From: an uncultured Subdoligranulum sp. | GTDB taxonomy: Bacteria; Bacillota; Clostridia; Oscillospirales; Ruminococcaceae | NCBI GenBank assembly: GCA_945830575.1 | Contig: CALZZE010000002.1 | Location: forward strand, 1 to 64,000 | Length of the DNA: 64,000 nucleotides | Direction of reading: 5' to 3' | Shown here: piece after piece, positions 14,419 to 31,877 of the stretch | How positions within the stretch are numbered: position 1 is the first letter of the stretch | Layout of the letters: the number at the start of each line of letters is the position of its first letter | The notes under the pieces: model-generated | Databases searched by the model: none | Seen by the model: the letters and a program-made list of their open reading frames with translations, nothing else | What the model was told of the DNA's origin: nothing | Translations under genes and position numbers: made by a program

Positions 14419-14434
14419 ATAGGAAACGCGGAAG

Positions 14435-16134: not shown

Positions 16135-16137
16135 AAC

Positions 16138-16170: not shown

Positions 16171-16213
16171 TTGCCTGTTGCTATCTTATTTTTTGAGGAA
16201 GGAGGGCACCCAC

Positions 16214-17626: not shown

Positions 17627-17643
17627 GCTGGTCGCGGTCAAAA

Positions 17644-17740: not shown

Positions 17741-17813
17741 ACAGGCATCGCTTGCTAGTCTTATCGGAAATTTCTGATAACCAAATTTATCCCTTGTGCA
17801 TTTGATTTGTTAT

Positions 17814-18401
17814 TTATGAGGTATGAAGGATGATGGATTTCTTTACTGGATACAGCGAAAAAACGATCTGCGTGGTCTCATTTTCCAGATTTTCATATTC
17901 GTTTTCATTCCAGTCGTATTCAATGATCTGATATGGAATTGTTAGTTCAATATCATGTCCTGGAAGCATTGTGCCTGCCGTCGGTTTGTCGGGGTTTAAT
18001 AATTGAAACAGGGGGATGTAACACATATAAGTACAAGTGTAATTTCCCAACTGTAATAGCATTTGGCCAGCAAAATCGACATCGACATTTTGCTCTGATA
18101 CGTTTTTGGCATACATTGTAAATACAATGATTTTTGAATGAAGGCCGTATGCCTTTACATGGAGAGGGTCTATATTAAATTGTTTGCAGAATTCATCTTC
18201 ACTAAGTACAGCATAATCCGAAAGCGTGTATTCCACACCATTGTGAAAAACAGGCTCATTCAGTGAATGCGTATCCAAAACCGGAGCCGGGCACTCAGCA
18301 TTCACGACATGAAATCTCCATACAAAAACGGAAGCAATTACTACAATAACGAGAAAGGCGGAAATTACTTCTCTAAGGCGATTACTTTTGACTGCCCGCA
18401 T
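17814..18401 (-). CDS. Membrane-anchored extracytoplasmic protein of the ABC operon
   Basis: A 195-residue protein with one N-terminal transmembrane segment (about residues 12-30) and an extracytoplasmic beta-rich part with no named domain that I can assign. It shares the general look of DUF5028/DUF4352-like accessory proteins. GAGGAGGG precedes the ATG, and the first codons overlap the end of the ABC ATPase gene by 37 bases, so it is the last gene of that operon. A role as an immunity or accessory protein of the transporter is an inference from context. Confidence 0.7.
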   Translation of the reverse strand: MRAVKSNRLREVISAFLVIVVIASVFVWRFHVVNAECPAPVLDTHSLNEPVFHNGVEYTLSDYAVLSEDEFCKQFNIDPLHVKAYGLHSKIIVFTMYAKNVSEQNVDVDFAGQMLLQLGNYTCTYMCYIPLFQLLNPDKPTAGTMLPGHDIELTIPYQIIEYDWNENEYENLENETTQIVFSLYPVKKSIILHTS

Positions 18402-19021
18402 AATTTTCCCTCCTCAAGAAAAATCACAGTATCGGCTAGCTGGTATAATTCTTCGGTATCGTGGCATGTAAGAATAATTAATGCCCCCCGCTCCTTCTCG
18501 TGGTGTAAAAGATTGCTTATTTGGGGAACGCCTTTTTCGTCAATTGCATTAATAGGTTCATCCAGAAGAATCAGTTTTGGGTGTTCCATAATGGCACAGG
18601 CGATTCCTAGACGCTGTTTCATCCCTAACGAATATTTTCTATAGGTGCGTCTGTCTTTGGGATCGAGGCCAACGGCAAGTAGTGCTTCATCTATCTGTTC
18701 CCATGGTGTGCCACCTTTCAAACTTGCAAGAAGCTCTAGGTTTTTCCTGCCTGTATAACCGGGAAGAAAAGCAGGGTTTTCAATCAACACACCAATGCTT
18801 TCCGGTGAGGAAATGTCTTTGTGCAGAACTTTGCCATCCCAAACAACGGAACCGTCTGATAATCGAATCAATCCGGCGATAGCGCGCATCAACATGGTTT
18901 TCCCGCTTCCATTTTTTCCTTTGATTCCATATATATGACCGGAGGATAGGGATAGAGAAATGTCGTCTAGCACGGTCACGCCCTTTATCTTTTTTGTGAC
19001 GTGGCTCAGTTCGAGAATCAT
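18365..19021 (-). CDS. ABC transporter ATP-binding protein
   Basis: A 218-residue ATPase. The Walker A motif is GKNGSGKT; the signature is shortened to YSLGMKQRLGIA; Walker B is LILLDEP, followed by the switch histidine in LTCHD. The start is set at the ATG reading MILELSHV with AGAGGGTG upstream, because a longer reading runs into the preceding permease. The protein belongs to the class that pairs with two ABC-2-like membrane proteins in bacteriocin-immunity or peptide-export systems. It works with the two permease genes upstream in the same operon. Confidence 0.88.
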   Translation of the reverse strand: MILELSHVTKKIKGVTVLDDISLSLSSGHIYGIKGKNGSGKTMLMRAIAGLIRLSDGSVVWDGKVLHKDISSPESIGVLIENPAFLPGYTGRKNLELLASLKGGTPWEQIDEALLAVGLDPKDRRTYRKYSLGMKQRLGIACAIMEHPKLILLDEPINAIDEKGVPQISNLLHHEKERGALIILTCHDTEELYQLADTVIFLEEGKLCGQSKVIALEK

Positions 19022-19029
19022 ATTGTTAT

Positions 19030-19857
19030 TCACCCTCTTACTAATAGATCTTTTTTGGGCAATACGGTGAGACCAACTACAAGGCTGACAAAGATGACGC
19101 ATAGGCAAACCGTAACGGTCTGCTGAAAAGTAGTGCCAGAACCTTCAAACGAATAGGAACGCAATAACATTGTGTGACTTGTGAATAGAAGCGGTGAATC
19201 CGAAAACGCACCAGCAATCACAAGTGACAACAGAACGAAAAATGCAAACCATGCATTCGTTAATAATTCAATAACTTGCTGAAGCAATCCCATTGCAGCC
19301 CATACAAAAAATGGAGTTAAAAGCAACGTAAAAATCTGAATACCTTCTTGACCAGGCCAAGGTTCAATGGCCGGAAGCGCAAGTCCCATATAATCGCTTG
19401 GAGATAAACCTGCCTGGACGATAAAAGAGAAGCCAGCTGTTATCATGAAGGCTGTGAAGCTGTACAAAATAGAGACAAATAGGCAAAATGCACTATGCGC
19501 ATACCACCAAATTCTTCGCTTGGGAAGCCTTGTAAATAATTCGTATCCGTATGCACCCAAGCAACTCTCTGTAGTTCCACCGAGTGATATGAGCAACAGT
19601 AAATGCTGCATCAGATATACGATAGGAATCTGAAACGTATTTGCTCTGTCTGGTATAAACGGGTAAGTCCCTTCAAAAGAATGGGCAAGTTGATCCCAAA
19701 ACGACGGTGTAACTCGGCTTTCGGGGAAATTCTGCAGATATAATTGGCTATAATAGGAAAAGTCGGATGCAATAAAAAGCAGTGCAACCCCAATTACCAA
19801 AACAAGTAAGCGCGTTCGATGAATTTGCAGCTCCAGTCGTAATGCTCTAAAAAACAT
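19030..19857 (-). CDS. ABC transporter membrane protein (second permease)
   Basis: A 275-residue protein with about six hydrophobic segments, the first near residues 15-33. It has no sequence motif beyond an ABC-2-like topology. It overlaps the upstream permease gene by 11 bases and ends 8 bases before the ATPase start, so the three are co-expressed. Base composition is AT-rich like the rest of this cargo. The substrate is unknown, but the secreted protein encoded at the head of the same strand is a candidate. Confidence 0.82.
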   Translation of the reverse strand: MFFRALRLELQIHRTRLLVLVIGVALLFIASDFSYYSQLYLQNFPESRVTPSFWDQLAHSFEGTYPFIPDRANTFQIPIVYLMQHLLLLISLGGTTESCLGAYGYELFTRLPKRRIWWYAHSAFCLFVSILYSFTAFMITAGFSFIVQAGLSPSDYMGLALPAIEPWPGQEGIQIFTLLLTPFFVWAAMGLLQQVIELLTNAWFAFFVLLSLVIAGAFSDSPLLFTSHTMLLRSYSFEGSGTTFQQTVTVCLCVIFVSLVVGLTVLPKKDLLVRG

Positions 19858-20680
19858 CTCGATTCCTCACACAAGAAAAAGCACATAAGCCAACGGACAA
19901 AAGAAGTATGAAAATAGCTTCCAGACACATAACGGTACTGGAGAGGGCAATGCCGACATAAGGAGTTATGATGAAATCTGGCCGGTAAATAGTTAGCCCT
20001 AAGAAATCAAAGAGATATGTCAACGCGTAAAAAAGCACGGTAGGCCCAATCAATGCAAAGAAAGCGTTTCTAACAAGGCCAGCTACAAAGATCGAAACGG
20101 AAGCAAATGCAGCAAGGAAAACAGCGTCAAACAAATTGTACAAAATCAAATAGGCCAGCGGATGCTGTGCATAAAAAGATGCGCCGACATGTCCAACCGT
20201 CATTAGTGGAAATGAAAAAGATGCAATTTCAGGCGGAAGAACCGGCAAAAACATCATACTGAAAAGCATTTGGCCCGTCGTTGCAAACATGACGACTAAA
20301 AAAGCCCCAATAAAGACTGTAATGTACCGTGATGCGTAAATAATTTGACGGGATGTCTTGATCGCTAAGTTTTTGATATATCCTGTGCGCAAGTCCTGCG
20401 CTAAAGCAGCTCCATACGGTAGAGTTGTGAGAAATGGTAGAAGAGCGAAGAGGAGTGTGGACGGAAGAGTCACGCCATCAGCACTGATGCATCCATTGTA
20501 AACGGAGTAGGGATAACTATAGGCGATTGTCTGATTTTGCAACGCTTCCAGGCTGCGATAATGTTCATGTACATTTAGCCCCAAACACCAGATTCCCAAT
20601 AGCGCACTCAGGATAAGTGCTGCTTTGAATGCAAAGCCGTGTATCATACGGTATAAGTCCAATCGGAGCATATTTTTCAT
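19847..20680 (-). CDS. ABC transporter membrane protein (first permease)
   Basis: A 277-residue polytopic protein. After one segment near residues 20-36 comes a long extracytoplasmic loop (about 40-75), then five more hydrophobic segments, a layout common in ABC-2 type exporters. The ATG at 20680 is preferred over an in-frame GTG nine bases earlier because AAGGTG lies at the right distance. It starts 6 bases after the lipoprotein stop and overlaps the next permease. Confidence 0.82.
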   Translation of the reverse strand: MKNMLRLDLYRMIHGFAFKAALILSALLGIWCLGLNVHEHYRSLEALQNQTIAYSYPYSVYNGCISADGVTLPSTLLFALLPFLTTLPYGAALAQDLRTGYIKNLAIKTSRQIIYASRYITVFIGAFLVVMFATTGQMLFSMMFLPVLPPEIASFSFPLMTVGHVGASFYAQHPLAYLILYNLFDAVFLAAFASVSIFVAGLVRNAFFALIGPTVLFYALTYLFDFLGLTIYRPDFIITPYVGIALSSTVMCLEAIFILLLSVGLCAFSCVRNRDVF

Positions 20681-20685
20681 TGCAA

Positions 20686-21492
20686 TCACCTTTTTTCTAA
20701 TGTGGGCAGTTTAATATAGATGTTATCACAATCGAACATATCTTCAGTCCAAGCCTGCGCGTTCAGATAAATTGGAGAGTAAGTTAAAAAGCCTGAACCG
20801 ACTTCGAAGGCAACGGTGTACGTTTCCGATTGACCAATTGCAAGCGATACTTTTGAATAATCAGAATTGTGCGGGTGAGGGTCACTCACATGATCTTGGT
20901 AACACATTTCACAGCTTTGAACATAGCAATCTACAGAAAATGCATTAACTGACATGGCATTAAGAAATAAGATTCCCTCTGTGTTACTGTTATTCTTTAC
21001 ATTAATTTTCATGAAAATATAGACTGGATCTTTTGGATATGTTGAAAGTTCATAATCATTGTTTATCATGTTGTCAGTTGAGTCTTCATACCAAACGTCT
21101 TGTAGAGTAAAAGTGGCTCCCATAGAGTCCCAGCTAGAATCAACACCTTCCAAAACATGGCCCTCATCCAATGCAAATTGATATTCTTCCGAATCATATT
21201 GCTGGAGAGGATCATCAACATCTTCATTTGCGAGTTCTTCAATACTATAACATTTCAAATTTGGCGTATTACCAAACTGGGCATCAACCGAAGTGACATC
21301 AATTGTGTCGGATGGGGCAGAGTTGCCTGTACCGGAATGATCAGATGCGGAACCTGCATTTTCGGATATAGGGGGTAGATCCGATGTATTTGGCAAATTA
21401 CTAGATGGATTTCCTGTGCATGCACAAAAAGAAAAACACACGCCAAGCAAAAGCGCACTCATTTTACACAAATGATATTTTCTTTCCACCAT
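20686..21492 (-). CDS. Lipoprotein of the ABC operon
   Basis: A 268-residue protein with a signal peptide and a lipobox (SFCAC, cysteine about residue 25), followed by a Ser/Asn/Pro-rich linker to about residue 90. The beta-rich domain that follows resembles DUF4352/DUF5028-type extracytoplasmic domains (VYIFMKINVKNNSN). The start is taken at ATG 21492; an upstream in-frame TTG is less likely. A terminator-like hairpin separates it from the secreted-protein gene upstream, so it is probably expressed by read-through. It may be an immunity or substrate-capture protein of the transporter. Confidence 0.72.
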   Translation of the reverse strand: MVERKYHLCKMSALLLGVCFSFCACTGNPSSNLPNTSDLPPISENAGSASDHSGTGNSAPSDTIDVTSVDAQFGNTPNLKCYSIEELANEDVDDPLQQYDSEEYQFALDEGHVLEGVDSSWDSMGATFTLQDVWYEDSTDNMINNDYELSTYPKDPVYIFMKINVKNNSNTEGILFLNAMSVNAFSVDCYVQSCEMCYQDHVSDPHPHNSDYSKVSLAIGQSETYTVAFEVGSGFLTYSPIYLNAQAWTEDMFDCDNIYIKLPTLEKR

Positions 21493-21530
21493 AAGATATG
21501 ATTCTCCCGTCCTGTTCAAATTATAAAAAT

Positions 21531-21579
21531 CAAGGCAACCCCTATCCAGCTATTACACGGTTCGATAGGGGTCACCTTG
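21531..21579 (-). terminator. Attenuator-like terminator between secreted protein and lipoprotein genes
   Basis: ACCCCTATC and GATAGGGGT form a perfect 9-bp stem, extended by CAAGG/CCTTG across a CA/CA mismatch. On the minus strand it is followed by ATTTTTATAA. Incomplete termination here would give much more mRNA for the secreted protein than for the transporter. Confidence 0.7.
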
Positions 21580-21645
21580 TTCATAACTTACTTGTGTTAT
21601 AGTTTCCGTACAGAGAACCAAGCTGTCTGTACGATTACAAAAAGG

Positions 21646-22119
21646 TCAAATCTGAACAACTCCAGATTGGGGAACACTGTCGGGACTCCATTCGCCGCGC
21701 ATGGTTACAGCTTTAGGAGTTTTGAAACTCAGCGCTGCCCACGTGTAACCATTTTCCTTTACACTATTATAGATAAAGTACTGAGTTCCAACACTCATGT
21801 ATCTATTAGAAGGTTCAGCAGAATTGCAGAAGGCCCAGTTACTAGTAGGATTTTCGGAGTATCCGCCACGTGCATTAACATATGCATAAGTAACGGAACT
21901 GTTAGAGGTGTGCTGAATTTGACAGTAGATGGAAGTGGTATTATCCTTTTTCCCTGCTTTATTCATCAATGCTTGACCAGTTGAATTGACAGTTGTAAAA
22001 CGGAAGCTTCGGTTATCAGATGTTGCTGATGCACCCAAAGACACAAAAACAGAAAGCATCATCGCGAGCAGCAGCGCCAACGCGATCTTCGCCAAGTTTG
22101 TTTTCTTTGCGGTATCCAT
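21646..22119 (-). CDS. Secreted DUF2712-like protein
   Basis: A 157-residue protein with a clear signal peptide: charged start KKTNLAK, hydrophobic core to about residue 29, likely cleavage after ASA at residue 32. The mature part is about 125 residues, rich in N, S, T and aromatic residues, with two cysteines. It resembles DUF2712-type secreted proteins, which occur beside ABC transporters in lactococcin-972-like loci; that family link is moderate. The ATG has TGGAGG upstream. The gene heads the ABC operon, with a 160-base leader holding a long palindrome. It could be a bacteriocin-like product or an exported signal. Confidence 0.68.
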   Translation of the reverse strand: MDTAKKTNLAKIALALLLAMMLSVFVSLGASATSDNRSFRFTTVNSTGQALMNKAGKKDNTTSIYCQIQHTSNSSVTYAYVNARGGYSENPTSNWAFCNSAEPSNRYMSVGTQYFIYNSVKENGYTWAALSFKTPKAVTMRGEWSPDSVPQSGVVQI

Positions 22120-22227
22120 AACTTTTCCTCCAATCATTATTTGTTTGGTGAACAGAATGCATGAGATGGAAGTTAACAAAATTGTCTGCGGATATCAGCC
22201 CTCCTTCTTTGGTGAAATTAGGTGAAG

Positions 22228-22247
22228 TATCTTCTGGCCAGAAGATA
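22228..22247. promoter_or_regulatory. Perfect 20-bp palindrome in the leader of the secreted-protein gene
   Basis: Both arms are perfect (TATCTTCTGG and CCAGAAGATA). It lies about 110 bases before the start codon and downstream of the predicted promoter, so it could be a repressor site or a leader hairpin. The rest of the stretch 22120-22426 holds the promoter and a terminator but no gene. Confidence 0.6.
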
Positions 22248-22288
22248 AAGGATGCCAAGATTGAATAGAAACTTTTCATGTTGAGGCA

Positions 22289-22317
22289 AGTATACCCGTA
22301 AAGCATTGGGCTGTCCA
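22289..22317 (-). promoter_or_regulatory. Promoter of the secreted-protein/ABC operon
   Basis: Read on the minus strand: TGGACA, 17 bp, TATACT. It gives a leader of about 160 bases before the start at 22119. Confidence 0.55.
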
Positions 22318-22356
22318 GTAATTTTGCCTATTTGCATGAAAAAGTGCGCCATATGC

Positions 22357-22390
22357 AAAAAACGACCTGATGTGAATCAGGTCGTTTTTT
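22357..22390. terminator. Bidirectional terminator
   Basis: AAAAAACGACCTGA and its exact complement form a 14-bp stem around a 6-base loop, with T runs on both strands. It ends the XRE regulator transcript on the minus strand and isolates it from the secreted-protein promoter. Confidence 0.88.
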
Positions 22391-22426
22391 CTATGATCGG
22401 CGTATGAAGAAGCACATAACGGAATA

Positions 22427-22783
22427 TCAATGAACGAATTGCTCGATTATCCGTGCTAAAAGCTCCTGCTGTTGTCTGGTTAACTTGGGGTTATGGTTGG
22501 CTGGACGAGCAAGTTCTTGAATCAATTCGGTAACAAGTTCGATTTGTTCTTCCTTTAGCCCCTTCACAGATATAACGTTTGCTTTTTCGCCACATGCCAG
22601 GTAATCAAGAGAGACGTTCAGGACATCAGCCAGAGACTCCGCCACTGACAGAGAAGGAATTCCCATATCGTTTTCGTAGTTGCCCAATGTAGAACTGGAA
22701 ATTTGAACTTTCTGAGCCAATTCAATCTGAGATAGCCCACGCGATTTGCGCAGCTTTAACAGCCGCTTACTGAAATCAAACAT
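22427..22783 (-). CDS. XRE-family transcriptional regulator
   Basis: A 118-residue regulator with an N-terminal Cro/C1-type helix-turn-helix (LSQIELAQKVQISSSTLGNYENDMGIPS, residues about 17-45) and a C-terminal helical tail. The start is the ATG reading MFDFSKRLLK, preceded by AGGAGG. It is divergent from the agr response regulator, and a 15-bp palindrome lies just upstream of its start, next to the agr promoter. It probably represses itself and possibly the quorum-sensing operon. Confidence 0.85.
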   Translation of the reverse strand: MFDFSKRLLKLRKSRGLSQIELAQKVQISSSTLGNYENDMGIPSLSVAESLADVLNVSLDYLACGEKANVISVKGLKEEQIELVTELIQELARPANHNPKLTRQQQELLARIIEQFVH

Positions 22784-22806
22784 ACCAGCCCAGCCTCCTG
22801 TAACCT

Positions 22807-22821
22807 GTACAATTATTGTAC
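22807..22821. promoter_or_regulatory. Palindromic operator between XRE regulator and agr locus
   Basis: GTACAATTATTGTAC is a perfect inverted repeat apart from its central base. It touches the -35 box of the rightward promoter and precedes the leftward regulator gene, as expected for the binding site of the adjacent XRE protein. Confidence 0.6.
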
Positions 22822-22824
22822 TGT

Positions 22825-22853
22825 TTGACAGGGGCAAAATATTGGAATACTAT
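22825..22853 (+). promoter_or_regulatory. Promoter for the agr regulator genes
   Basis: TTGACA, 17 bp, TACTAT. A second candidate (TTGACA at 22895, 17 bp, TATGGT) lies closer to the gene. Both are ahead of a strong ribosome-binding site (AAGGAGG). Confidence 0.55.
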
Positions 22854-22984
22854 ATATGATAATTCCATATTTTTAAGGGATTTTCGTCTGCGATTTGACA
22901 GAAAGGTTTTTTGGGACTATGGTGAGAAAGACTCTTGTGCATCTGATGACTGATGTTTGGACAGTTTATAAGGAGGATCGACAT

Positions 22985-23707
22985 ATGAAGGTTCTAGTGT
23001 GTGACGATGAACCCCTATTTGCGGAAGGATTAAAGCAGAACATTCTCAACATTCTTGACAAACCGACATGGCGTGTGTCTGTTGATTGTGTTTCGGACTT
23101 GGAACAAATGGCCAAGATCAATGCAGAGCAGTACGATGTCGCTTTCCTGGATATAGATATGGGAAAACTGAACGGCATAGAGCTTGGCAGAAGGCTTCGA
23201 GTTTCATCATCAGATATAATTTTGGTTTTTGTGACCAATTATGTGCAGTATAGTCTAGATGGTTACGAAGTTCATGCACTTCGCTATCTGCTAAAAGATC
23301 ATCTGGAAGAAAAACTGCCGGAGTGCTTAGATGCAGTTATATCGGCTTACAGGAAAGAACGTAGACACATACGCTTTTCCAGCGAAAACAACGAGATAGA
23401 CGTCATGCCAGTGCATATTGTATACGCAGAAACAGAGGGACGGCATCTTAAGATACATATGGTAAACGAATTACGCGCGGAAATGGTTGTGAGTATGACC
23501 ATGAGCGATTTGACGGAGCTTCTACAAGAGCGAGGCTTTTTAAGAATTCACCAAAGCTATCTTGTAAATATGGCCTACATTCAACGAATAAAGAGTACAG
23601 GCGTATGGCTAAATGATGACACAAAATTGCCAATCAGTGCCAGAAACTACAAATATCTTAAACAGGAGTACCTACATTGGAAGGGGATGAAACGATGGCG
23701 TATGTAA
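22985..23707 (+). CDS. AgrA-like response regulator with LytTR domain
   Basis: A 240-residue two-component regulator. The receiver domain begins MKVLVCDDEP, has its phosphoacceptor aspartate at about residue 56 (FLDIDM), and has a lysine near 105. The C-terminal LytTR DNA-binding domain starts at about residue 135 (ENNEIDVMPVHIVYAETEGRHLKIH) and contains the typical FLRIHQSYLVN segment. The ATG at 22985 is preceded by AAGGAGG. The gene overlaps the kinase gene by 13 bases. It is expected to activate agrBD when phosphorylated by that kinase. Confidence 0.9.
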   Translation: MKVLVCDDEPLFAEGLKQNILNILDKPTWRVSVDCVSDLEQMAKINAEQYDVAFLDIDMGKLNGIELGRRLRVSSSDIILVFVTNYVQYSLDGYEVHALRYLLKDHLEEKLPECLDAVISAYRKERRHIRFSSENNEIDVMPVHIVYAETEGRHLKIHMVNELRAEMVVSMTMSDLTELLQERGFLRIHQSYLVNMAYIQRIKSTGVWLNDDTKLPISARNYKYLKQEYLHWKGMKRWRM

Positions 23708-25023
23708 TCAGCACTTTGCTGAATAGCGTTCAGCTGTTAAGTTTCCTTTGGTTCTTCGATGGTTTTTTCGTGAGGAAGTATCAGGGAATTAGATTTTGGG
23801 TAATAGCCTTGATGTGGGATGCAGCAGTGTGCTTTTTACTAAACATTGAAGCATCTGTATTGAGTCCCGTTAAGGTGATTTCTGTCATAGCTTCAATTTT
23901 ATTACTGAGTGTTTTGCTGTATGTTGGAGATTTGGCGTTTAAGGTGTTTTTATCCGTATCAGTCTATGCATTATTCAACCTCCTTGCTTATGTGCTGGAA
24001 TTTGCTGTGATGGCGACCTATGGTATACCGAGAGAAATGTTGGTTAATGATCGGGTGTTATACACTGTGACGGGTTTTGTCGGCGGATTGTGCATGCTCG
24101 TATTATCTCAATTTGTCAAACACTTCCATTCCCCAGGGCAATACAACGAAAATAATCGCGTATGGACACTTATCACCACAGTGTTTCCCATTGCATCTAT
24201 TCTTGTGTTACTTCTGCTCTATGCAGCGGTTTCACCATACAATGATAATCAGAGAACAACAAAGCAATTCGCACTTGTCTGTCTTTGCGTTTTGGCCATT
24301 GCCAATATCATTGTCTTGGTACTTATTGACACGCTAAAGCGTAATACACAGGAGCATGAGGAGCTAGTTGCAATCAGTGAGAGAGAACGTATGCAGCGGG
24401 AAAGCGTGCTGGCGTTATCCGCGGCGTATGATGGGCAACGCCGATTGACACACGATTTTCGAAAGCATATCTCTGTTCTAACTGAGCTTATGGAAAAACG
24501 CCGATATGATGAGGCAACGCACTATATAGAGCAGCTGCAGGAGCAACAAACAGAAAGGATTCTGTTAGTTAATACGCATCACGCAACTATTGATGCGATT
24601 CTAAATCAAAAAGGATACGAGGCGGAAAAAAATAAAATCGATATCCGGTTTGAAGTGAATGATCTGTCGAGAATTCATATTAAGGCAACCGAATGCACAG
24701 TAGTTCTCGGAAATTTATTGGACAACGCTATCGAATCTTGTCAGAAATTTCCCGAAGATAAGCGGTGGATACAAGTGAGTGTCATATACAATAAGGGGGA
24801 TGATAAGGAGCCGGGAAATATTTTCATCTCTGTGTTAAATCCGAGCCTGCCTGTAAAAATCGAAAACAATATGATTCGGACAACGAAAGCGAACCCCTCT
24901 TTTCATGGCTTTGGGTTAAAAAATGTAAAAGATGTTCTTGATAGATACCACGCTGAGTACTATATGTCGTATGAAGATGGACAGTTTGTTTTTAGCTTGG
25001 AATGGCCAGACGAAAATTTGTGA
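23695..25023 (+). CDS. AgrC-like sensor histidine kinase
   Basis: A 442-residue membrane kinase. Six or so transmembrane segments fill residues 1-210, as expected for a peptide-pheromone receptor. The phosphoacceptor histidine lies in RRLTHDFRKHISVL at about residue 252. The GHKL-type ATPase follows, with N box VLGNLLDNAIESC at about 335 and G box HGFGLKNVKDVL at about 404. The start overlaps the response regulator and has GGAAGGGG upstream. With AgrB and AgrD downstream, this makes a complete signal-production and sensing circuit. Confidence 0.9.
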   Translation: MAYVISTLLNSVQLLSFLWFFDGFFVRKYQGIRFWVIALMWDAAVCFLLNIEASVLSPVKVISVIASILLLSVLLYVGDLAFKVFLSVSVYALFNLLAYVLEFAVMATYGIPREMLVNDRVLYTVTGFVGGLCMLVLSQFVKHFHSPGQYNENNRVWTLITTVFPIASILVLLLLYAAVSPYNDNQRTTKQFALVCLCVLAIANIIVLVLIDTLKRNTQEHEELVAISERERMQRESVLALSAAYDGQRRLTHDFRKHISVLTELMEKRRYDEATHYIEQLQEQQTERILLVNTHHATIDAILNQKGYEAEKNKIDIRFEVNDLSRIHIKATECTVVLGNLLDNAIESCQKFPEDKRWIQVSVIYNKGDDKEPGNIFISVLNPSLPVKIENNMIRTTKANPSFHGFGLKNVKDVLDRYHAEYYMSYEDGQFVFSLEWPDENL

Positions 25024-25028
25024 TATTT

Positions 25029-25097
25029 TGCAAATGCGCAGCATTTTTGTGCATTTGAGCAGATAAGGTGGACTTTCTCTTGTTAATGCAGTAGATT
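25029..25097 (+). promoter_or_regulatory. Candidate LytTR-regulated promoter of agrBD
   Basis: Two imperfect direct repeats, TGCAAATGCGCAG (25029) and TGCATTTGAGCAG (25050), are spaced exactly 21 bp, two helical turns. They lie just before TGGACT, 17 bp, TAGATT. LytTR proteins typically bind paired direct repeats at this spacing next to a weak -35 box. The assignment is inference from layout. Confidence 0.5.
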
Positions 25098-25136
25098 TAT
25101 GACTAGGTTAGATCCATTAGAAAAGAGATAATACCA

Positions 25137-25700
25137 ATGGAAACTTTTGCTGAGGCAGTGACACAATTTTGTCTGCGAAAGCATTTGATTGACAGCCATC
25201 AAACGGAATGGTGTCACTACATGGTTGTGCGCCGCGCCATGAGCATCATATCCCTGCTTTGGCTGGTTCCTGTGGGCGCATTGCTCTCCAAGTGGTACAT
25301 ATCTTTGGCTTTTGTGTTAAGTTATCGCTTTCTGCGGTCTCGTACGGGCGGTTATCATGCAAAATCACCGCTTGGATGTATACTGAGTTCTACATGCTTG
25401 CAAATTACAGGAATGTGTTTTGTGTCCTGTACCAAAGGATTGCTCCGTATTGCGGTTTTATTTGTGATTTCATCAATCATCATTATCCGGCAAGCTCCGG
25501 CGAACAATGCTGAACTGCATTTGACCACAGAGGAAATTCAAGCCCTGAAACCACGAATCAAAATGCGATTGCTTATACTTTTTACCTTGATGCTTGCCTT
25601 TAGTCTTATGCTGCCCCGGATTGCTGTTTGCATTTCTTTTGGAGTGGCAGTAACCGCAGTTTTACTGCTCCTTTCTCGAATGGGAATGGGTGCTCAGTAG
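25137..25700 (+). CDS. agrB: AgrB-like autoinducer-processing protease
   Basis: A 187-residue membrane endopeptidase that trims and cyclises the AgrD precursor. The active-site histidine and cysteine are visible as H74 (RSRTGGYHA) and C81 (SPLGC), seven residues apart as in staphylococcal AgrB. Four or more hydrophobic segments follow. The conserved loop before the last helices is APANNAELHLTTEE. The gene is followed after 27 bases by the pheromone precursor gene. The order here (regulator, kinase, B, D) differs from the staphylococcal BDCA order. Confidence 0.9.
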   Translation: METFAEAVTQFCLRKHLIDSHQTEWCHYMVVRRAMSIISLLWLVPVGALLSKWYISLAFVLSYRFLRSRTGGYHAKSPLGCILSSTCLQITGMCFVSCTKGLLRIAVLFVISSIIIIRQAPANNAELHLTTEEIQALKPRIKMRLLILFTLMLAFSLMLPRIAVCISFGVAVTAVLLLLSRMGMGAQ

Positions 25701-25727
25701 AAATAATAACAAGAAAGGATGAGTTAT

Positions 25728-25913
25728 ATGTCCTCCATGAAAAAACGCGTTTACAAAGCTGCCAAGTCTGTAGTTCAACACTTGGTTAAAGCAGAAGCGC
25801 AGGATTGGCCGCCGTATACAATGTGCGGACTTTACCAGCCACGGCGGCCGAACATGACACAGTCAAGTGCTCAAAAGACAGAAAAAAGGGAAAGTGAGAA
25901 GGAAAATCTCTGA
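25728..25913 (+). CDS. agrD: AgrD-like cyclic peptide precursor
   Basis: A 61-residue precursor with an amphipathic N-terminal helix (MKKRVYKAAKSVVQHLVKAEA), a short core (DWPPYTMCGLYQPRRP) and a charged tail. The start at 25728 is preferred because AAGAAAGG lies 9-10 bases upstream; 25719 and 25737 are alternatives. By comparison with clostridial AgrD proteins, where the five-residue ring directly precedes a YQP or HQP motif, the ring would be TMCGL and closed through threonine. If the cysteine closes the ring, the product would be CGLYQ. The usual acidic EEP after QP is replaced by RRP. Confidence 0.8.
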   Translation: MSSMKKRVYKAAKSVVQHLVKAEAQDWPPYTMCGLYQPRRPNMTQSSAQKTEKRESEKENL

Positions 25914-26322
25914 CCCCTTACGGTTCGCAGTAAGAACAAATTTCACTCCGGAGCCGGCCAACTTAATCTCGACATCTTAGAGCTAAATTACAAATGGGAG
26001 CGCAGAGCCTGTCACCTGTTCGTCAGGAGGACTTTGCGCTTTTCCTATATATCCAGCACTTTTGATTCAGAGAAAGTGCAGCAAAGCACCATTTTCTGTT
26101 TGGTTCGGAATAGCTTGCCTAGTCTATGCATTGGAACGGCATTGCGGTTTGCGCTGTGAGCTATATAGCGCAAGGCAAATATTCACTTTCGCCGGCCCAG
26201 TATCCACCACGGTCGTTTTTTGCATTTGCACAGGCAGTCCATGCATATAAGCAAAAAACATAGATCTCTTCGAATCATAGGTGTATTTTTAGATCGAGAT
26301 AAGCGATTGCCTTCCTCCAGAT
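25914..26322. other. Intergenic stretch without a recognisable gene
   Basis: A hairpin with the ends AGCGCA and TGCGCT (25999-26040), followed by TTTTCC, is the likely terminator of the agr locus. It closely resembles the hairpin at 26741. Beyond it I see no supported gene; short open frames here lack ribosome-binding sites and similarity. Confidence 0.5.
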
Positions 26323-26500
26323 ATGCTCGGCTTTAAGAAACAGGGGAAAACCATCCTTCTAGCCAGCCACAGCGCAAAGGGGATCAGCTTCCTCTGTGAT
26401 ACCGTCCACGAAAATGGACGCAGGGGCTTGATGGAGGGCCGGAAACGGAGCGAGAAAAGGCAACGTAAGGAAATAGGATTGCTGCTGTTGAACCGCGATG
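26323..26500 (+). pseudogene. Remnant of an ABC transporter ATPase
   Basis: The reading frame begins LGFKKQGKTILLASHSAKGISFLCDTVHENGR, which corresponds to the region just after Walker B in bacteriocin-type ABC ATPases (GKTILLASHS, then LCDTV). The preceding Walker A, signature and Walker B parts are missing, and the sequence degenerates after about 60 residues. It points to an earlier transporter or immunity locus lost from this spot. Confidence 0.55.
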
Positions 26501-26559
26501 TTCAGAAGAGACATACGCGTGGAAACAATGCGCGGCTGTTCGGAGAAAAGACAAAACTT

Positions 26560-26742
26560 ATGAATAGAAAAGAAGAGTCTCGCTGGGTACGTTGTCCTCT
26601 CTGTGGAGGAAAAACGAGAACGAAGGTATATGAAGATACCGTCTTGATAAAGTTCCCGCTTTATTGCCCCAAATGCAAGCGGGAAATCCGAATCGATGTT
26701 GTGAAATTGAAGATGGTCTTAAGCGAAGAGCCGGACGCATAA
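26560..26742 (+). CDS. Cysteine-rich KTR-type zinc-ribbon protein
   Basis: A 60-residue protein with two CxxC knuckles (CPLCGGKTRTKVYEDT and YCPKCKREI), the pattern of the cysteine-rich KTR family often found on clostridial mobile elements next to transporter genes. The ATG at 26560 begins MNRKEESRWVRCPLC; the open frame extends upstream into the ABC remnant but that part is not KTR sequence. No function is established. A terminator follows at once. Confidence 0.75.
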   Translation: MNRKEESRWVRCPLCGGKTRTKVYEDTVLIKFPLYCPKCKREIRIDVVKLKMVLSEEPDA

Positions 26743-26789
26743 AGCGCAGAGCCTGCTACCCATTCATCAGGTGCAGGCCCTGCGCTTTT
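26741..26789. terminator. Shared terminator between KTR gene and XRE gene
   Basis: AAAGCGCAG pairs with CTGCGCTTT, with internal pairing of GCCTG and CAGGC. T runs occur on both strands, so it can stop both the KTR gene and the converging XRE gene. Confidence 0.7.
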
Positions 26790-26797
26790 CAGTTGCA

Positions 26798-27148
26798 CTA
26801 CTCGATGTTATATCCCTTGCTGGAACGCAAAGCTGTCAAGACCGCCTTTATGACGGGAAGCAATGTATGGGCTTCTTCTTCGCTGCATTCGTTAACCAGG
26901 GCATGAAGCTGACGAATAGCAAAACTGTCGGTTTGCGGAGCATCATCAAAAATCTCTCGCGTGTCTATTTTCAAAGCGCGTACAACAGCGTAAAGCGTCT
27001 TAAGAGTAGGATTTCCGCAGCCCTGCTCAAAAGTGATAATAGTGCGCACATCGGTACCGCTCTTTTCAGCAACTTCCTCTTGTGTGAGGTCGAGTTCAGT
27101 ACGGGTTCTCTTTACAACAACAGCTAAGCGCCGGGCATATTCTGGCAT
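26798..27148 (-). CDS. XRE-family transcriptional regulator
   Basis: A 116-residue protein with an N-terminal helix-turn-helix (LTQEEVAEKSGTDVRTIITFEQGCGNPTLKTL, residues about 20-51) and a helical C-terminus. It reads away from the sigma-like gene and from a 21-bp palindrome centred at 27215, its probable operator. It may act as a repressor of the ICE recombination region. Confidence 0.85.
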   Translation of the reverse strand: MPEYARRLAVVVKRTRTELDLTQEEVAEKSGTDVRTIITFEQGCGNPTLKTLYAVVRALKIDTREIFDDAPQTDSFAIRQLHALVNECSEEEAHTLLPVIKAVLTALRSSKGYNIE

Positions 27149-27204
27149 CCTGATTCACCTCGGATATATTTTACAATACACCTCGTTTCGTTATAATTCG
27201 TTGA

Positions 27205-27225
27205 GCATCATGTTTAACATGATGC
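27205..27225. promoter_or_regulatory. 21-bp palindrome, probable operator
   Basis: The arms GCATCATGTT and AACATGATGC are perfectly complementary around one central base. It lies 57 bp upstream of the XRE start, in the divergent region before the sigma-like gene, so one regulator could control both directions. Confidence 0.6.
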
Positions 27226-27440
27226 ATATTGCATATTGAGGAAAGCGCCCGGAAATCGCTATGCGAGACATTTGTGACAGAGCGGATTCACATTTCAGTT
27301 TCTTGCACAGCGGTGGTATGCGTCAGTACCTGCATTCCATTGCAGAATAAATAATATGATTGGCGGCACGCCAGGCTGCCGCTCGCCTCCGCTATTCGGT
27401 TCATCCGTTTATAACGCTTGAATCGAAATGGAGGCACACA

Positions 27441-27857
27441 ATGCAGGAAATCAATCTTCGAGATTTGTATCCCGATGTTTATAAAGAAGATATGCTCGTG
27501 AAGGTATCGGAGGACGTACTGGCCGTTATTACAGCTGATCATCGGGCGGATGCGGCCCATGAACGGCAGATGTACCGTTATAAGGCCCACTACTCCCTGG
27601 ACTGCGACAACGGCATTGAAAAGGCGGCCCTTCCGCATACATCTACCCCGGAGGAACTTTTGGAGGAAAAGCTGCAACGCGAGGAGCTGTATGCTGCGGT
27701 GATGTCCCTGCCCGAAAAGCAGGCAAAGCGTGTCTATGCGCATTTCTACCTGGGCATGACGGCGAGGGAGATTGCTGATGCTGAACATGTTGATGCCAGC
27801 TGCATCCGCCGCAGTATCCGAAACGGTCTGAAACGTCTGGCAAAAAAATTGCGGTAA
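27441..27857 (+). CDS. Sigma-70 region-4-like regulator of the ICE
   Basis: A 138-residue protein. The C-terminal part (ELYAAVMSLPEKQAKRVYAHFYLGMTAREIADAE, then IRRSIRNGLKRLAKKL) is a sigma region-4 or RinA/ArpU-like helix-turn-helix. The start is the ATG with GGAGG upstream (27430-27434); an extension upstream lacks a ribosome-binding site. Such proteins sit beside xis and int in clostridial ICEs and probably switch transfer or excision genes. Confidence 0.82.
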   Translation: MQEINLRDLYPDVYKEDMLVKVSEDVLAVITADHRADAAHERQMYRYKAHYSLDCDNGIEKAALPHTSTPEELLEEKLQREELYAAVMSLPEKQAKRVYAHFYLGMTAREIADAEHVDASCIRRSIRNGLKRLAKKLR

Positions 27858-28375
27858 TTCCCGGTTACTATACCCGTTTGGAGCTGTTTTTGTCAGTACT
27901 TATAAGAAGGATGTTTTCTACCCTTCATAGGTACTTTGACAACCGCATACACAGCAGAACAGGTACATAACCCGCGCAGGAGCGAGTGAGAAGCGACGCC
28001 AGGATGCTGGCAGCCAGGAGGTGAACACGGCTGTCAGCGGAGCGCCCACCGCCTTTCTCAAACACAGCTGCGGCACGCTGTGCGCGATGATCGCGCGGGG
28101 GCTTAAAGATACTTCCTCACGGCCCGCCAAAGACTTGGGGGGAACCCTGCGGCGCACGCTACGAACGGCACTGCGGAGTTATGACAGCCGCGCCAGCGGA
28201 GACCTGTCCTGTTCCCCTTGCCTGGGGTGCGCGGCAAATAGGGCAATTTCAAACAAACGTTTTACTGTCTGGCATAATTTGATGTCAGATACTATGGCGG
28301 CCATCGTAAACGGAGTGTCCCTCCCAGTACGATGGCCGCTATCCATGTGACATTAAGTTAAAAGGAGATTGACAC
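27858..28375 (+). other. Noncoding leader region ahead of xis, with a hairpin
   Basis: This 518-bp stretch has no convincing gene; a 110-codon open frame (28021-28350) has no ribosome-binding site and an improbable composition. Near the end, ATGGCGGCCATCGT (28294) and ACGATGGCCGCTAT (28329) form a stem of 14 bp with one mismatch, just ahead of the excisionase gene. It may hold regulatory RNA or protein-binding sites for excision control. Confidence 0.45.
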
Positions 28376-28630
28376 ATGGCAACTACAAAAAAATATTCCG
28401 CGGAGGTATCGCAACCCGAACGCATTGACTTTGAAATGGAGCCGGTCGTCTTGCCGCAGATTGCCAGCATCAAACAGGCCAGCGCCATGATGGGGCTGCC
28501 GGTTTACTATCTGCGGCGGCTTTGCAAAGAGGTGCCTGGCATTGCGTTCCAATCCGGCGTGAAATGGTACATCAACCTGGGACGCCTGGCCGATTATTAT
28601 AACGGCCGCTTGACGGATACCAAAGCATAA
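28376..28630 (+). CDS. xis: Excisionase-like DNA-binding protein
   Basis: An 84-residue protein. Residues about 32-75 (IKQASAMMGLPVYYLRRLCKEVPGIAFQSG, then WYINLGRLADYY) form a winged-helix domain of the MerR/excisionase type that binds DNA next to the element ends. AAAAGGAGAT precedes the ATG. It lies 127 bp upstream of the integrase gene, the normal xis-int arrangement. Small Xis proteins diverge quickly, so the call rests on fold and position. Confidence 0.8.
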   Translation: MATTKKYSAEVSQPERIDFEMEPVVLPQIASIKQASAMMGLPVYYLRRLCKEVPGIAFQSGVKWYINLGRLADYYNGRLTDTKA

Positions 28631-28757
28631 ATAATACGCACTGTCAAGCATACCGGGCGGCCCTGCGACAAACTTCCTCCCGGCAGAAAACTCGGCTATA
28701 GTGGGTGTCAGGAGGGCAACTCCAATACGCTGTAACCATGGCCCAGGAGGAAAAACG

Positions 28758-30245
28758 ATGGCATCTGTAAAATTGATAACGCCCCAAAACAAACCAAAGT
28801 ATTTCAAGTTGACCGCCAACATAGTGGTGAATGGCGAGAAAAAACGGTACTATTCCCGGTTCGAGTTTGACCCCAAAGTGCTCAGGACCGCAAAATCGAG
28901 ATACGCTGCGGCGATGGCCGCGGCGGTCCGCTTTGAGTCGGAGATGCAGCAGGAGGCGTTAAACCCCAAAAAGCCGGAACCTGTTCTGACGTTTGTCGAG
29001 GTGGCGGAAGAGTACATCCAATCCTGCAAAGCAAGAAAGGCGCCTTCCGCTCGCCTGAGCGGCAATTACGATGCAAACAAAAACAAAGCAAACACAACAA
29101 ACAACAAAGAAACCTACCTGCGAAAGCTGCAAACGGTGTGCCCCTGGTTCACCTCGATGGAGGTCAACAAGATCAGCAAAGGCGACTATGAGCGGCTGAT
29201 GGACGAGATGGAGGTGATGGGGCCGTGCCGCCGTGAGCGGGCTACATTGCGTCCGGGGGCGGAAGTGTACAAGACAGCCTCCTTCACAAAGCTGGCTGCG
29301 AAGTGCGATGTCACCCCGTATACGATGGCGGAAGCCTTCCGCGGTAAGACCGTGAAACGGCATACCGCCGATGAGATCGCCAAGGCAATGGGGCAGCCCG
29401 TGGAGGCGCTGTTCCAGATCGAGGTGGTCGAGCATGCGCTGTCCCAAAAGACAATGCGGGAGTACGCGCTGTTTGCCCGCCAGGTCTTGCAGTATGCCGC
29501 CGAACACTACGGCAGCATGAAGCCGGAGTTTGCACTGCCGGCAAAAGGCAGCCGCCCCCGCTTCGTGGATTGCCTGCATGAAGACGAGGTGCATATCCTG
29601 CTGAAAGAACTGGATCGGAGCAGCATGATTGAGCAGGCGGTGATTCGAGGACTGCTCAACACAGGCGTCCGCCGCGGCGAGCTGGCAGGGCTGACCTGGG
29701 ATGACATCGACTTTGCCGGATGCACCGTACACGTCTACAAGTCATTGCTGGTCATCAAAGAGTATGGATATCAGCTGACCACCACCAAGGAATCGAACGA
29801 CCGCTATGTGGATGTAGCGCCAGAGTATATGGATTTCATGCAGCGGTACTACGACTACTGGAAGACAAAGAAACGGCTGATGGGAGCCAGCTGGCAAACC
29901 GTCATCGAAAAGAAAAACGGCAAACATTATGCCTCTCTGCGCGCCTTGGCCGGCAACGATTTCGTGATCTGCAACGACCAGGGCTGGCCGCTGAATCCGG
30001 ACGGCTACGCGGCAATGGTGCGCCGCGTGGGGGACAGGGCAGGGGTTCGTCACCTGCATCCGCATATGTTCCGGCACACCTTCGTCAGCCTGCTGATGTC
30101 CAACCCGGAGATCGACGTGGCCACGGTGGCGGCCGAAGCGGGCCATGCGCAGCCCAGTACAACCCTGATGATCTACACCCAACAGTATAAAAAACGGCAA
30201 AAAATGATCCGTAGCCAACTCAGCAAGGAATTATACGGCAAATAG
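28758..30245 (+). CDS. int: Tyrosine integrase of the ICE
   Basis: A 495-residue site-specific recombinase. An N-terminal arm-binding region (residues 1-65) and a SAM-like core-binding domain (about 77-250) precede the catalytic domain. Active-site residues are visible as Arg in TGVRRGEL (about 305), H436 and R439 in HPHMFRHTF, H463 in AGH and Tyr473 in MIYTQ. The core-binding domain is interrupted at about 176-222 by a segment resembling an XRE helix-turn-helix (FTKLAAKCDVTPYTM, then IAKAMGQPVEALF). The ATG has AGGAGG upstream. The attachment region lies directly downstream. Confidence 0.93.
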   Translation: MASVKLITPQNKPKYFKLTANIVVNGEKKRYYSRFEFDPKVLRTAKSRYAAAMAAAVRFESEMQQEALNPKKPEPVLTFVEVAEEYIQSCKARKAPSARLSGNYDANKNKANTTNNKETYLRKLQTVCPWFTSMEVNKISKGDYERLMDEMEVMGPCRRERATLRPGAEVYKTASFTKLAAKCDVTPYTMAEAFRGKTVKRHTADEIAKAMGQPVEALFQIEVVEHALSQKTMREYALFARQVLQYAAEHYGSMKPEFALPAKGSRPRFVDCLHEDEVHILLKELDRSSMIEQAVIRGLLNTGVRRGELAGLTWDDIDFAGCTVHVYKSLLVIKEYGYQLTTTKESNDRYVDVAPEYMDFMQRYYDYWKTKKRLMGASWQTVIEKKNGKHYASLRALAGNDFVICNDQGWPLNPDGYAAMVRRVGDRAGVRHLHPHMFRHTFVSLLMSNPEIDVATVAAEAGHAQPSTTLMIYTQQYKKRQKMIRSQLSKELYGK

Positions 30246-30302
30246 TCGTTTTTTGAAATGGCCCGAAATTTTGGCTACCAAAATTTCACAGGTTTGGCTA
30301 CC

Positions 30303-30349
30303 AAAAAAAGAACGCGCAGCGTTAATAATAACGACTGCACGTTCTTTTT
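30303..30349. terminator. Terminator downstream of the tRNA gene
   Basis: AAAGAACG pairs with CGTTCTTT, and the stem continues with partial pairing (CAGCGTTA with AACGACTG). On the minus strand it ends in seven T. It fits termination of the tRNA transcript and, on the plus strand, of int. Confidence 0.7.
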
Positions 30350-30354
30350 GCAAG

Positions 30355-30428
30355 TGGGCCAGGCAGGGTTCGAACCCGCGACCAATCGGTTATGAGCCGA
30401 CAGCTCTGACCAGCTGAGCTACTGGCCC
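30355..30428 (-). tRNA. tRNA-Met (anticodon CAT), complete, inside the ICE end
   Basis: Read on the minus strand, a 74-base cloverleaf is complete. The acceptor arms are GGGCCAG and CTGGCCC with discriminator A. The D-arm is AGCTCAGCTGGTCAGAGCT. The anticodon loop is CTCATAA in a GTCGG/CCGAT stem, and the T-arm contains GGTTCGAACC. CCA is not encoded. Anticodon CAT could also be read as an isoleucine tRNA that needs lysidine. Its sequence differs at several positions from the broken copy 142 bp to the right, so it is not a recent duplicate. Confidence 0.92.
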
Positions 30429-30570
30429 AAATGACGAAATCTATGAAGTTTTCGGTGCGGCTTTGGATGGCTTTGGTAGCCAATCGGTAGCCAAAACGGG
30501 GAAAATCAACAGGCGTTCATTTCGGAACGACGTAAGATCGTTGTTTGCAAAAGAAATTTTGGTTGGCTCT

Positions 30571-30614
30571 GGCGGTTATGAGCCGCCAGCTCTGACCAAC
30601 TGAGCTAATGGCCC
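30571..30614 (-). pseudogene. 5' part of a host tRNA-Met(CAT), cut by the ICE
   Basis: On the minus strand the acceptor 5' strand (GGGCCAT), D-arm (TAGCTCAGTTGGTCAGAGC) and complete anticodon stem-loop (GGCGG CTCATAA CCGCC) are intact. The variable loop, T-arm and 3' acceptor strand are absent and replaced by non-tRNA sequence. The break is taken as the right end of the ICE; the missing 3' part should lie at the left end, outside the window. Confidence 0.8.
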
Positions 30615-30630
30615 ACATGGCAACTGTATC

Positions 30631-30659
30631 ATTATAGCAGAAAAACTTCCAATGGGCAA
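30631..30659 (-). promoter_or_regulatory. Promoter of the host tRNA-Met gene
   Basis: On the minus strand: TTGCCC, 17 bp, TATAAT, ending 17 bases before the tRNA 5' end. It faces into the ICE, so it could now transcribe the broken tRNA and then the complete one. Confidence 0.75.
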
Positions 30660-30707: not shown

Positions 30708-31877
30708 GTGCGCAGAGTGTTGGGAGCGATCCTCTGTCTGGCAATGTTGGCGGCTGTGCTGGTACTGCCGGGGCTGCCGGGCAGGCTGACGGAGCCGGCA
30801 GTCACACCCACCCCCGCACCCAGCCCGCCGCCGGAGGAAGCCGGCAGCGGCTTTGGGGTGTGGGTGAGCTATCTGGAATGGCAGCAGGTGGATTTTTCCT
30901 CCGCACAGGCGTTTGCGGCGGACATTGCCGTCATTCTGGACAACATCCGGGACGCGGGCGGCAGCGTAGTGTTTGCGCAGGTGCGGCCCTTCGGGGACGC
31001 GCTGTACCCCAGTGACTACTTCCCTTTCAGCCATCTCTGCACCGGCACGCAGGGGCAGGATCCGGGCTTTGACCCGCTGGCGCTGCTGGTGGAGGCCGCC
31101 CACGCCCGGAGGCTGGCGCTGGAGGCGTGGGTGAACCCTTACCGGCTGCAGGCGGGCAGTCTGCCCGCCGAACTGTGCGCCGCCAACCTTGCCAGCATCC
31201 ACCCGGACTGGGTGCGGGAGACGGACGGCGGGCTGTATCTGAATCCGGCCGACCCGCAGGTGCGGCAGTACATTGCGGACGGTGTGGATGAGCTGTGCCG
31301 CCGCTACGATGTGGACGGCGTCCATTTTGACGATTACTTTTACCCCGCCACCGACCCGGCCTTTGACGCCGCCGACTACGCCGCCAGCGGCACATCGCTG
31401 GCGCTGGCGGACTGGCGGCGCCAGAACGTGAACGAGCTGGTGCGCCTTTGCTGGCAGACCGTCCACCGGTACGAGGGCGTGCGGTTCGGGGTGTCGCCGC
31501 AGGGCAACCCGGACAGCTGCCTGACGATGCAGTACAGCGATGCGGCGCTGTGGCTGGCGGAGCCGGGGTACGTGGATTACCTGATGCCGCAGCTGTACTG
31601 GGGGCTGGACTCGCTGCTGCCGGAGCGGGCGCAGGCGTGGCTTTCCCTGCCCCGGGCCGAGGGCGTGGCGCTGTATTTCGGGCTGGGAGCCTACCGCATC
31701 GGGGAGGGCGAGCAGGGCAATCTGGCGGAGTGGAAGTCCGGCTGCGCGCTGGCCCGCCAGCGGGACTGGCTGCTGGCCCATGGCGCGGACGGAGTCGGGC
31801 TGTATCGGTACGGCTCGCTGTGGGCAAACACCTCCTGGCCCGGACTGGCCGCCGCCGAGCTTGCCGCGCTGCGATAA
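30708..31877 (+). CDS. Secreted glycoside-hydrolase-like protein (GHL10/DUF187, YngK-like)
   Basis: A 389-residue protein with an N-terminal signal or membrane segment (residues 5-24) and a Pro/Thr-rich linker to about residue 45. The TIM-barrel domain is typical of the GHL10 family: GVWVSYLEW, then DAGGSVVFAQVRPFGDALYPSDYFP, EAWVNPYR, and DGVHFDDYFYP with acidic residues. Family members are thought to act on cell-wall or envelope glycans; the substrate is unknown. The start is GTG with AGGGGGG upstream. It is the first chromosomal gene right of the ICE and is monocistronic. Confidence 0.85.
   Translation: MRRVLGAILCLAMLAAVLVLPGLPGRLTEPAVTPTPAPSPPPEEAGSGFGVWVSYLEWQQVDFSSAQAFAADIAVILDNIRDAGGSVVFAQVRPFGDALYPSDYFPFSHLCTGTQGQDPGFDPLALLVEAAHARRLALEAWVNPYRLQAGSLPAELCAANLASIHPDWVRETDGGLYLNPADPQVRQYIADGVDELCRRYDVDGVHFDDYFYPATDPAFDAADYAASGTSLALADWRRQNVNELVRLCWQTVHRYEGVRFGVSPQGNPDSCLTMQYSDAALWLAEPGYVDYLMPQLYWGLDSLLPERAQAWLSLPRAEGVALYFGLGAYRIGEGEQGNLAEWKSGCALARQRDWLLAHGADGVGLYRYGSLWANTSWPGLAAAELAALR

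Follow-up and report, generated by a model that had tools for sequence, protein, structure and literature searches.

A conjugative-type element of gut bacteria appears to supply a substitute for the tRNA-Ile2(CAU) gene that it splits

An apparently conjugative-type element (ICE) is inserted into a host tRNA gene, assigned here to tRNA-Ile2(CAU), in the 64,000-nucleotide stretch of DNA analysed in this work (the window). It is highly probable, in our assessment, that the ICE splits the apparently sole host gene of this kind, restores it at neither end and supplies a promoterless replacement that is driven by the host promoter. Comparison of the window with related genomes shows the splitting of the gene, its two halves, the empty sites and the replacement tRNA, and also that no promoter-like site stands close before the latter.

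Read on the minus strand from a host flank gene (GHL10, glycosyl hydrolase-like, 30708..31877, plus strand; Pfam PF02638, E=3.5e-43; tblastn), the order is promoter, tRNA 5′ half, spacer, complete tRNA, hairpin and a convergent integrase. The host tRNA promoter, TTGCCC-17-TATAAT with a TG before the -10 (30631..30659, minus strand; sigma-70 promoter scan), precedes the 5′ half of the host tRNA-Ile2(CAU) gene (30574..30614, minus strand), which ends in the core CTCATAACC (30574–30582), the boundary of the element (attR). From the core, a 145-nt element spacer (30429..30573, minus strand), devoid of promoter-like sites on this strand and carrying GTAGCCAA repeats at 30476 and 30487 (plus strand) that are presumed integrase arm sites, leads to the complete element-borne tRNA, the candidate replacement tRNA-Ile2(CAU) (30354..30428, minus strand; tRNA-Met in the ARAGORN labelling). 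Directly 3′ of this tRNA is a terminator-like hairpin with a U tail (30300..30354, minus strand; MFE -27.2 kcal/mol, z -7.2; inverted repeat). Two TTTGGCTACCAAAA repeats, again presumed arm sites, occupy 30270..30306 (plus strand) between the tRNA terminator and the tyrosine integrase, a protein of 495 aa that is convergent with the tRNA (28758..30245, plus strand; PF00589, E=2.6e-25). The right-hand part of the ICE fills 1..30573, the contig starting at position 1 and the rest of the element lying on other contigs, and includes a relaxase of MobA/VirD2 type (16178..17626, plus strand; PF03432, E=9.7e-30).

ARAGORN and Rfam both find one complete CAT-anticodon tRNA, at 30354/5–30428 on the minus strand (67.5 bits), and through a 47-nt direct repeat (91%) a second tRNA 5′ half can be located at 30573–30619 on the same strand, 186 bp off. 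These results, with the native-site comparison below, bear out an earlier sequence-only reading of this DNA, which held that a host tRNA is split and that a complete one lies further in on the same strand. It was also right that the host gene is not restored at this end, its 5′ half running into the spacer, and that the element tRNA differs from the broken copy, as the element tRNA does from the host half at 16 of 16 loci. The cut does fall within the gene as that reading proposed, although in the anticodon loop and not right after the anticodon stem: host sequence stops after CTCATAACC, comprising the anticodon loop and two stem bases, the crossover is within the loop, and the shared core measures 7–11 bp across element types A–C. 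The stem-like CCGCC that follows the loop is assigned to the element side because native genes read CCGCT. The proposed gap between core and tRNA is likewise real, at 145 nt instead of 142 bp.

The same arrangement was read at 16 loci: the window, L006–L013, G015, G007, G014 and the Faecalibacterium loci L137, L138, L141 and G395 (the last placed in that genus from its likeness to L141). Because it is found at 15 further loci, the arrangement is not due to chance; the loci were picked by similarity to the window, so that 16 of 16 is no estimate of frequency. Orientation is constant throughout, with a distance of 136–148 nt from CTCATAA to the tRNA. We sorted the elements by spacer and tRNA into types A–E, and at least five kinds of element tRNA occur across the Gemmiger and Faecalibacterium loci, their cloverleaf pairs kept. 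Over 14 tRNAs (8 element, 6 native; 13 distinct) all 273 of 273 stem cells pair, while 9 of 21 stem pairs have changed on both sides, and the element tRNAs accordingly look selected as tRNAs. The element tRNA in L011–L013 (type B) is identical to the native gene of another species (G019), which argues that at least some element tRNAs are captured host genes.

Promoters were sought as the best sigma-70 match in the 100 nt before each tRNA start, scored 0–12 with an additional 0.5 for a TG and given a shuffle p, the scan covering sigma-70-type promoters only. Native loci scored 10–11.5 in 14 of 14 cases (p≤0.003; 13 native genomes and an unsplit copy in G002) and broken host halves 9.5–11.5 in 16 of 16 (shuffle p≤0.033). 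Upstream of the element tRNAs scores fall to 6–9, and at none of the 16 loci is there a promoter-like site at p<0.05; the lowest p values are 0.087 (G014), then 0.213 and 0.250 (type C), and the G014 match, at 9/12, ends 2 nt before the tRNA and is therefore poorly placed. Because a consensus promoter stands before 16 of 16 broken halves and 0 of 16 element tRNAs, the host promoter most likely drives the element tRNA, and the absence of a promoter-like site before it supports the same proposal in the sequence-only reading. No terminator-like site was seen in one example each of type B, C and D spacers; the scan is insensitive and this null counts for little, since the hairpin behind the L010 tRNA was missed as well. 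The window (type A) spacer holds a 5-pair hairpin (30529–30514) with five T in its 8-base tail, which counts against read-through.

That the replacement tRNA is instead driven by its own or a distant element promoter, its place behind the host promoter being accidental, we regard as unlikely. Such a scheme has a precedent in an actinophage tRNA with a promoter of its own (PMC10865867, in excerpt), and type A and B elements do have an outward 12/12 promoter at their other end: TTGACA-16/18-TATAAT, 232–257 nt before the core in 5 of 5 type A/B left ends (0 of 300 shuffles each). It is absent from both type C left ends, and type D and E left ends were not found, so that it occurs in two of the three element types tested. 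Integration, however, separates this outward promoter from the tRNA, none of the 16 element tRNAs has a promoter-like site of its own at the threshold above, and the orientation and the 136–148 nt distance would hardly be constant at 16 of 16 loci by accident. In the excised circle the outward promoter could read through attP into the tRNA; alternatively, its product is a small RNA or its role lies elsewhere.

The identification of the complete tRNA as a tRNA-Met, also made in the sequence-only reading, did not hold. Its best E. coli match is a CAT tRNA annotated as tRNA-Ile (86.8% over 91% of the query), the others among the best five listed being three tRNA-Lys at 80.9% and one tRNA-Ile at 79.4%. 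Over its full length it shares 83% and 76% identity with two E. coli CAT tRNA-Ile, versus 68% and 65% with the other CAT tRNAs of its own genome, on contigs C16 and C36; the latter two are 66–73% identical to those E. coli tRNA-Ile, both of which ARAGORN labels ‘Met’ too. The C16 tRNA we take to be initiator-like by its sequence features, and the C36 tRNA presumably resembles the elongator Met of Bacillota; with C36 as query, only tRNA-Thr appears among the E. coli matches listed. Because the window tRNA is closer to E. coli CAT tRNA-Ile than to its own genome's other CAT tRNAs, we reject the tRNA-Met identity; by these comparisons the tRNA is tRNA-Ile2(CAU), the AUA decoder.

The window's own draft genome gives 33 tRNA matches, three of them with a CAT anticodon: those on C16 and C36 and the window tRNA. 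No second Ile2-type tRNA was seen among the 33, and in the closed genome G034 two half-gene patterns found nothing beyond the split halves and the element tRNA; the disrupted gene is apparently the host's sole tRNA-Ile2 gene. A second one could sit in a draft gap, since the draft is also without some necessary tRNAs (Phe and Cys). This incompleteness would suit the alternative that the complete tRNA is a functionless captured passenger and that another AUA decoder sustains the host, as would the identity of type B element tRNAs with the G019 gene, which resembles recent capture. Such a passenger is nevertheless very improbable, given that a second Ile2 gene is seen neither in the draft nor, by pattern, in G034, and that all stems are kept with compensatory changes present.

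A genus-wide comparison took in 35 genomes, of which 12 have a split gene (G000, G002, G007, G010, G014, G015, G016, G022, G023, G026, G032 and G034), 16 have an unsplit gene only (G001, G003, G005, G008, G012, G013, G017, G019, G021, G024, G025, G027, G029, G030, G031 and G033) and 7 were placed in neither class (G004, G006, G009, G011, G018, G020 and G028). In the unsplit genomes, 17 loci were read over 1.5–3.1 kb (two in G030), each with one anticodon core and no fragment. The sequence-only reading had named an element-free genome with the complete tRNA in tandem to the fragment as the case that would count against it; 16 of the 35 genus genomes are unsplit without a fragment, and no such tandem was encountered. 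GHL10 lies upstream of the unsplit tRNA and divergent from it in 11 of 16 genomes and downstream in G033, and was not found within the 1.5–3.1-kb native stretches of G005, G008, G021 and G025. G002 has, beside its split gene, an unsplit copy on another contig next to GHL10, which is perhaps contamination. Two unsplit tRNA-Ile2 genes are present in G030, on different contigs (L166 and L167) and each beside GHL10; contamination or duplication may account for them.

The missing 3′ half, sought at the left end of the element, is present there in G034, G010, G022 and G016, alone after the same core. Both ends were read in these genomes (on one contig each in G034, G010 and G022, on two contigs in G016), and no functional tRNA is rebuilt at either junction. 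Both flanks of the G034 element match the native site of the closed genome G027, which has an intact tRNA between them (87% over 1408 bases on one side; 93.5% over 1368 bases on the other, beyond roughly 0.1 kb present only in G027); the flanks of G010 match those of G021 at 80% over 1413 bases and 88% over 265 bases. Joining the halves gives the native G027 gene in 5 of 5 pairs tried (G034, G010, G022, G016 and G000), where the junction ends of G016 and G000 lie on two contigs each and the G000 3′ half may stem from an older element. The element measures 41.8 kb in closed G034 (1,490,856 to 1,532,610), 28.8 kb in G010 and 29.1 kb in G022. An ordinary tRNA island, with the complete tRNA as a host gene whose 3′ end the ICE restored and the fragment as an old duplicate, would account for the position of the integrase, which adjoins the complete tRNA at its 3′ end as it does in typical islands, but has almost no chance of being correct: at native loci a single tRNA is present and the fragment is absent, the far end in those four genomes has the same core with just the 3′ half behind it, the spacer between fragment and tRNA is alike across hosts with similarity ending soon past the fragment's 5′ end, and the G034/G027 pair speaks against it. 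We rejected both a restored 3′ end, the 5′ half running into the spacer and the 3′ half standing alone at the far end, and a tandem duplication in the host, native loci having a single tRNA and no fragment.

Under the preferred reading, that of a split gene with an element-borne replacement, events would run as follows. A tyrosine-integrase ICE would enter the anticodon loop of the host tRNA-Ile2(CAU) gene via the 7–11 bp core and leave it unrestored, with promoter and 5′ half at one end and 3′ half at the other. The ICE attachment region, holding a complete tRNA-Ile2 and terminator between core and integrase in the same orientation, would keep AUA readable. As the replacement shows no promoter of its own, the orphaned host promoter would, after integration, transcribe the 5′ half, the spacer and the replacement tRNA; RNase P and 3′ nucleases would free the mature tRNA from this read-through transcript, and excision would rebuild the host tRNA gene. 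Read-through expression, processing, excision and essentiality are the parts of this scheme that we infer.

The repeat TTGGCTAC/GTAGCCAA is present in six copies in the 64 kb, of which five flank the tRNA on either side within 30211–30494; it recurs at two left ends, that on C57 (type A) and that of the G010 element (type B), and is absent from the type C spacer examined. These repeats look like integrase arm sites, which would put the tRNA within attP because they lie on both its sides. The left end of the window element is most likely on C57 of the same genome (L025), with ParA and a VirD4-like CD1115-family protein, the link between the contigs being a presumed one.

On that contig (L025, 6975) the core connects a type A left end, with ParA and the VirD4-like gene, to the 3′ half of a type C tRNA along with a second integrase. 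On contig C5 of the same genome (L154, 2339–2708) a type C left end runs into a 3′ half of native type, beyond which 89 residues of a third integrase survive as a remnant (66%, E=3e-35); an exact pattern found no type C 5′ half in this genome. With presumed contig links, the simplest reading is a row of host 5′ half, window element, type C element and older remnant. At a single tRNA-Ile2 site three or more related elements appear to stand in a row, with the same core at each boundary; in G015, too, a type C left end is followed by an integrase remnant. For the window element itself the pair of junctions is not closed, since in this apparent stack its left end and the host 3′ side are on other contigs. 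If the row is real, the newest element adjoins the promoter and the older replacement tRNA is left without its 5′ half. We also considered whether element tRNAs have altered anticodon stems that evade their own integrase; types A, C, D and E differ from the native stem, and type B L011 does not, and with a type C 3′ half attached to a type A end on C57, a type C tRNA seems to have been hit. Somewhat short of probable, and offered tentatively, is a promoter swap at attP, from the outward element promoter in the circle to the host promoter after integration, so that one tRNA gene would be expressed in both states, combined with promoter-proximal stacking in which each later arrival captures the promoter, strands its predecessor's replacement tRNA and leaves the outermost element as the only supplier of the AUA decoder.

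Type A, B and C integrases are 49–93% identical to that of the window; for G034 and G014 the frames found cover only part of the enzyme. Between integrase and tRNA there are about 10 kb in G007 and 2.4 kb in L141. In G007, the split tRNA with a type C replacement tRNA and the distant integrase share a contig (L156, 2048–2268 and 12551–14032), and this replacement tRNA may be domesticated or rearranged. The integrase clade occurs in 7 of 396 genomes in the family, in 2 of 126 genera (E≤1e-60), and 2 of 394 genomes in the order (E≤1e-45), one being the window's own. Among plasmids, 139 records matched in part, always with coverage below 80%.

Conjugation genes are spread over the element family: integrase and relaxase in the window, a VirD4-like CD1115 protein on C57 (counted with the window element by the assumed contig link), a VirB4-like CD1110 protein in G034 and a VirD4-like protein in G010. 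A scan of viral contigs returned only two integrase matches, at 22–29%. We rejected a phage origin on the relaxase, VirD4-like and VirB4-like genes and because the viral contigs gave no more than these two weak matches; judged from its gene content, the carrier is a conjugative-type element of a Gemmiger-like genome and not a temperate phage. Other cargo in the window comprises a LytTR response regulator, a histidine kinase (HATPase_c_5) and AgrB at 22895–25700, resembling an agr-type quorum-sensing set; a 2547-aa protein at 4602–12245 with SNF2/helicase and weak Eco57I-type methylase matches; and a YhcG-type PDDEXK nuclease (DUF1016) at 14664–15707. The G034 element has two protein-kinase genes (L028, 2285–7447) whose NCBIfam matches, below cut-off, include a MADS6-like defence kinase model. 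Among hand-chosen Pfam-supported window genes (9 element, 7 host), the AUA count is 23 among 6083 element codons versus 1 among 2973 host codons (Fisher p=0.0016); a wider host set, with five frames added of which four had no Pfam match and one went unscanned, gives 5 of 5410. Altered promoter spacing may be tolerable for a tRNA that is seldom used.

The open-licence literature searched yielded no ICE with this arrangement, which would carry over to conjugative elements of common gut bacteria a phage strategy, that of breaking a tRNA and bringing a spare. It also points to a more compact form of that strategy, an attachment region with a promoterless, probably essential gene that takes over the promoter of the gene it destroys. 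Such a mechanism would explain the exchange of tRNA-Ile2 genes between species and would make the host dependent on the integrated element; it would also offer a clean system for studying how cells respond to exchange of their AUA decoder.

The nearest parallel is the tRNA-dependent lysogeny of actinobacteriophages (Guerrero-Bustamante & Hatfull 2024, PMC10865867, in excerpt), in which two Gordonia phages use tRNA-Ile2-CAT. Shared features are a tyrosine integrase, an attB inside a tRNA gene, a short core, junctions neither of which rebuilds the tRNA and a disrupted gene that is apparently the host's sole one for that isotype. In contrast to those phages, the carriers here are apparently Bacillota ICEs; and whereas in phage Fionnbharth a strong promoter of its own serves the tRNA, which overlaps gene 37, the tRNA here lies in the attachment region, apparently promoterless and downstream of the broken gene's promoter. 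The label of tRNA-dependent lysogeny fails here because the carriers are apparently conjugative, and tRNA placement and promoter differ too. Sinorhizobium prophages (excerpts of PMC11476347 and PMC12429752) and Lactobacillus prophage Lj965 (as told in PMC10865867) are said to replace a host tRNA broken by integration; in these prophages, as proposed here, an element tRNA substitutes for the broken gene. A word search of the two Sinorhizobium texts, as far as they were available, did not find ‘promoter’.

Conventional islands as described in excerpts of the Islander paper (PMC4383910), where 2083 of 3919 have an anticodon-centred attachment site, resemble the present elements in their tyrosine integrase, anticodon-centred site, displaced tRNA fragment and tandem arrays. 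Those islands restore their target from a partial copy in attP, whereas here there is a whole second tRNA and neither end is restored. Ends of the present kind could be misplaced by island-finding programs built around a restored tRNA and a far-off fragment, the 2-kb minimum length of PMC4383910 being one example. According to the part of a review available to us (PMC8371274), bacterial tRNA genes are reconstituted on integration and, with very few exceptions, use their original promoter; in the present elements the gene is not rebuilt, although its promoter is most likely reused.
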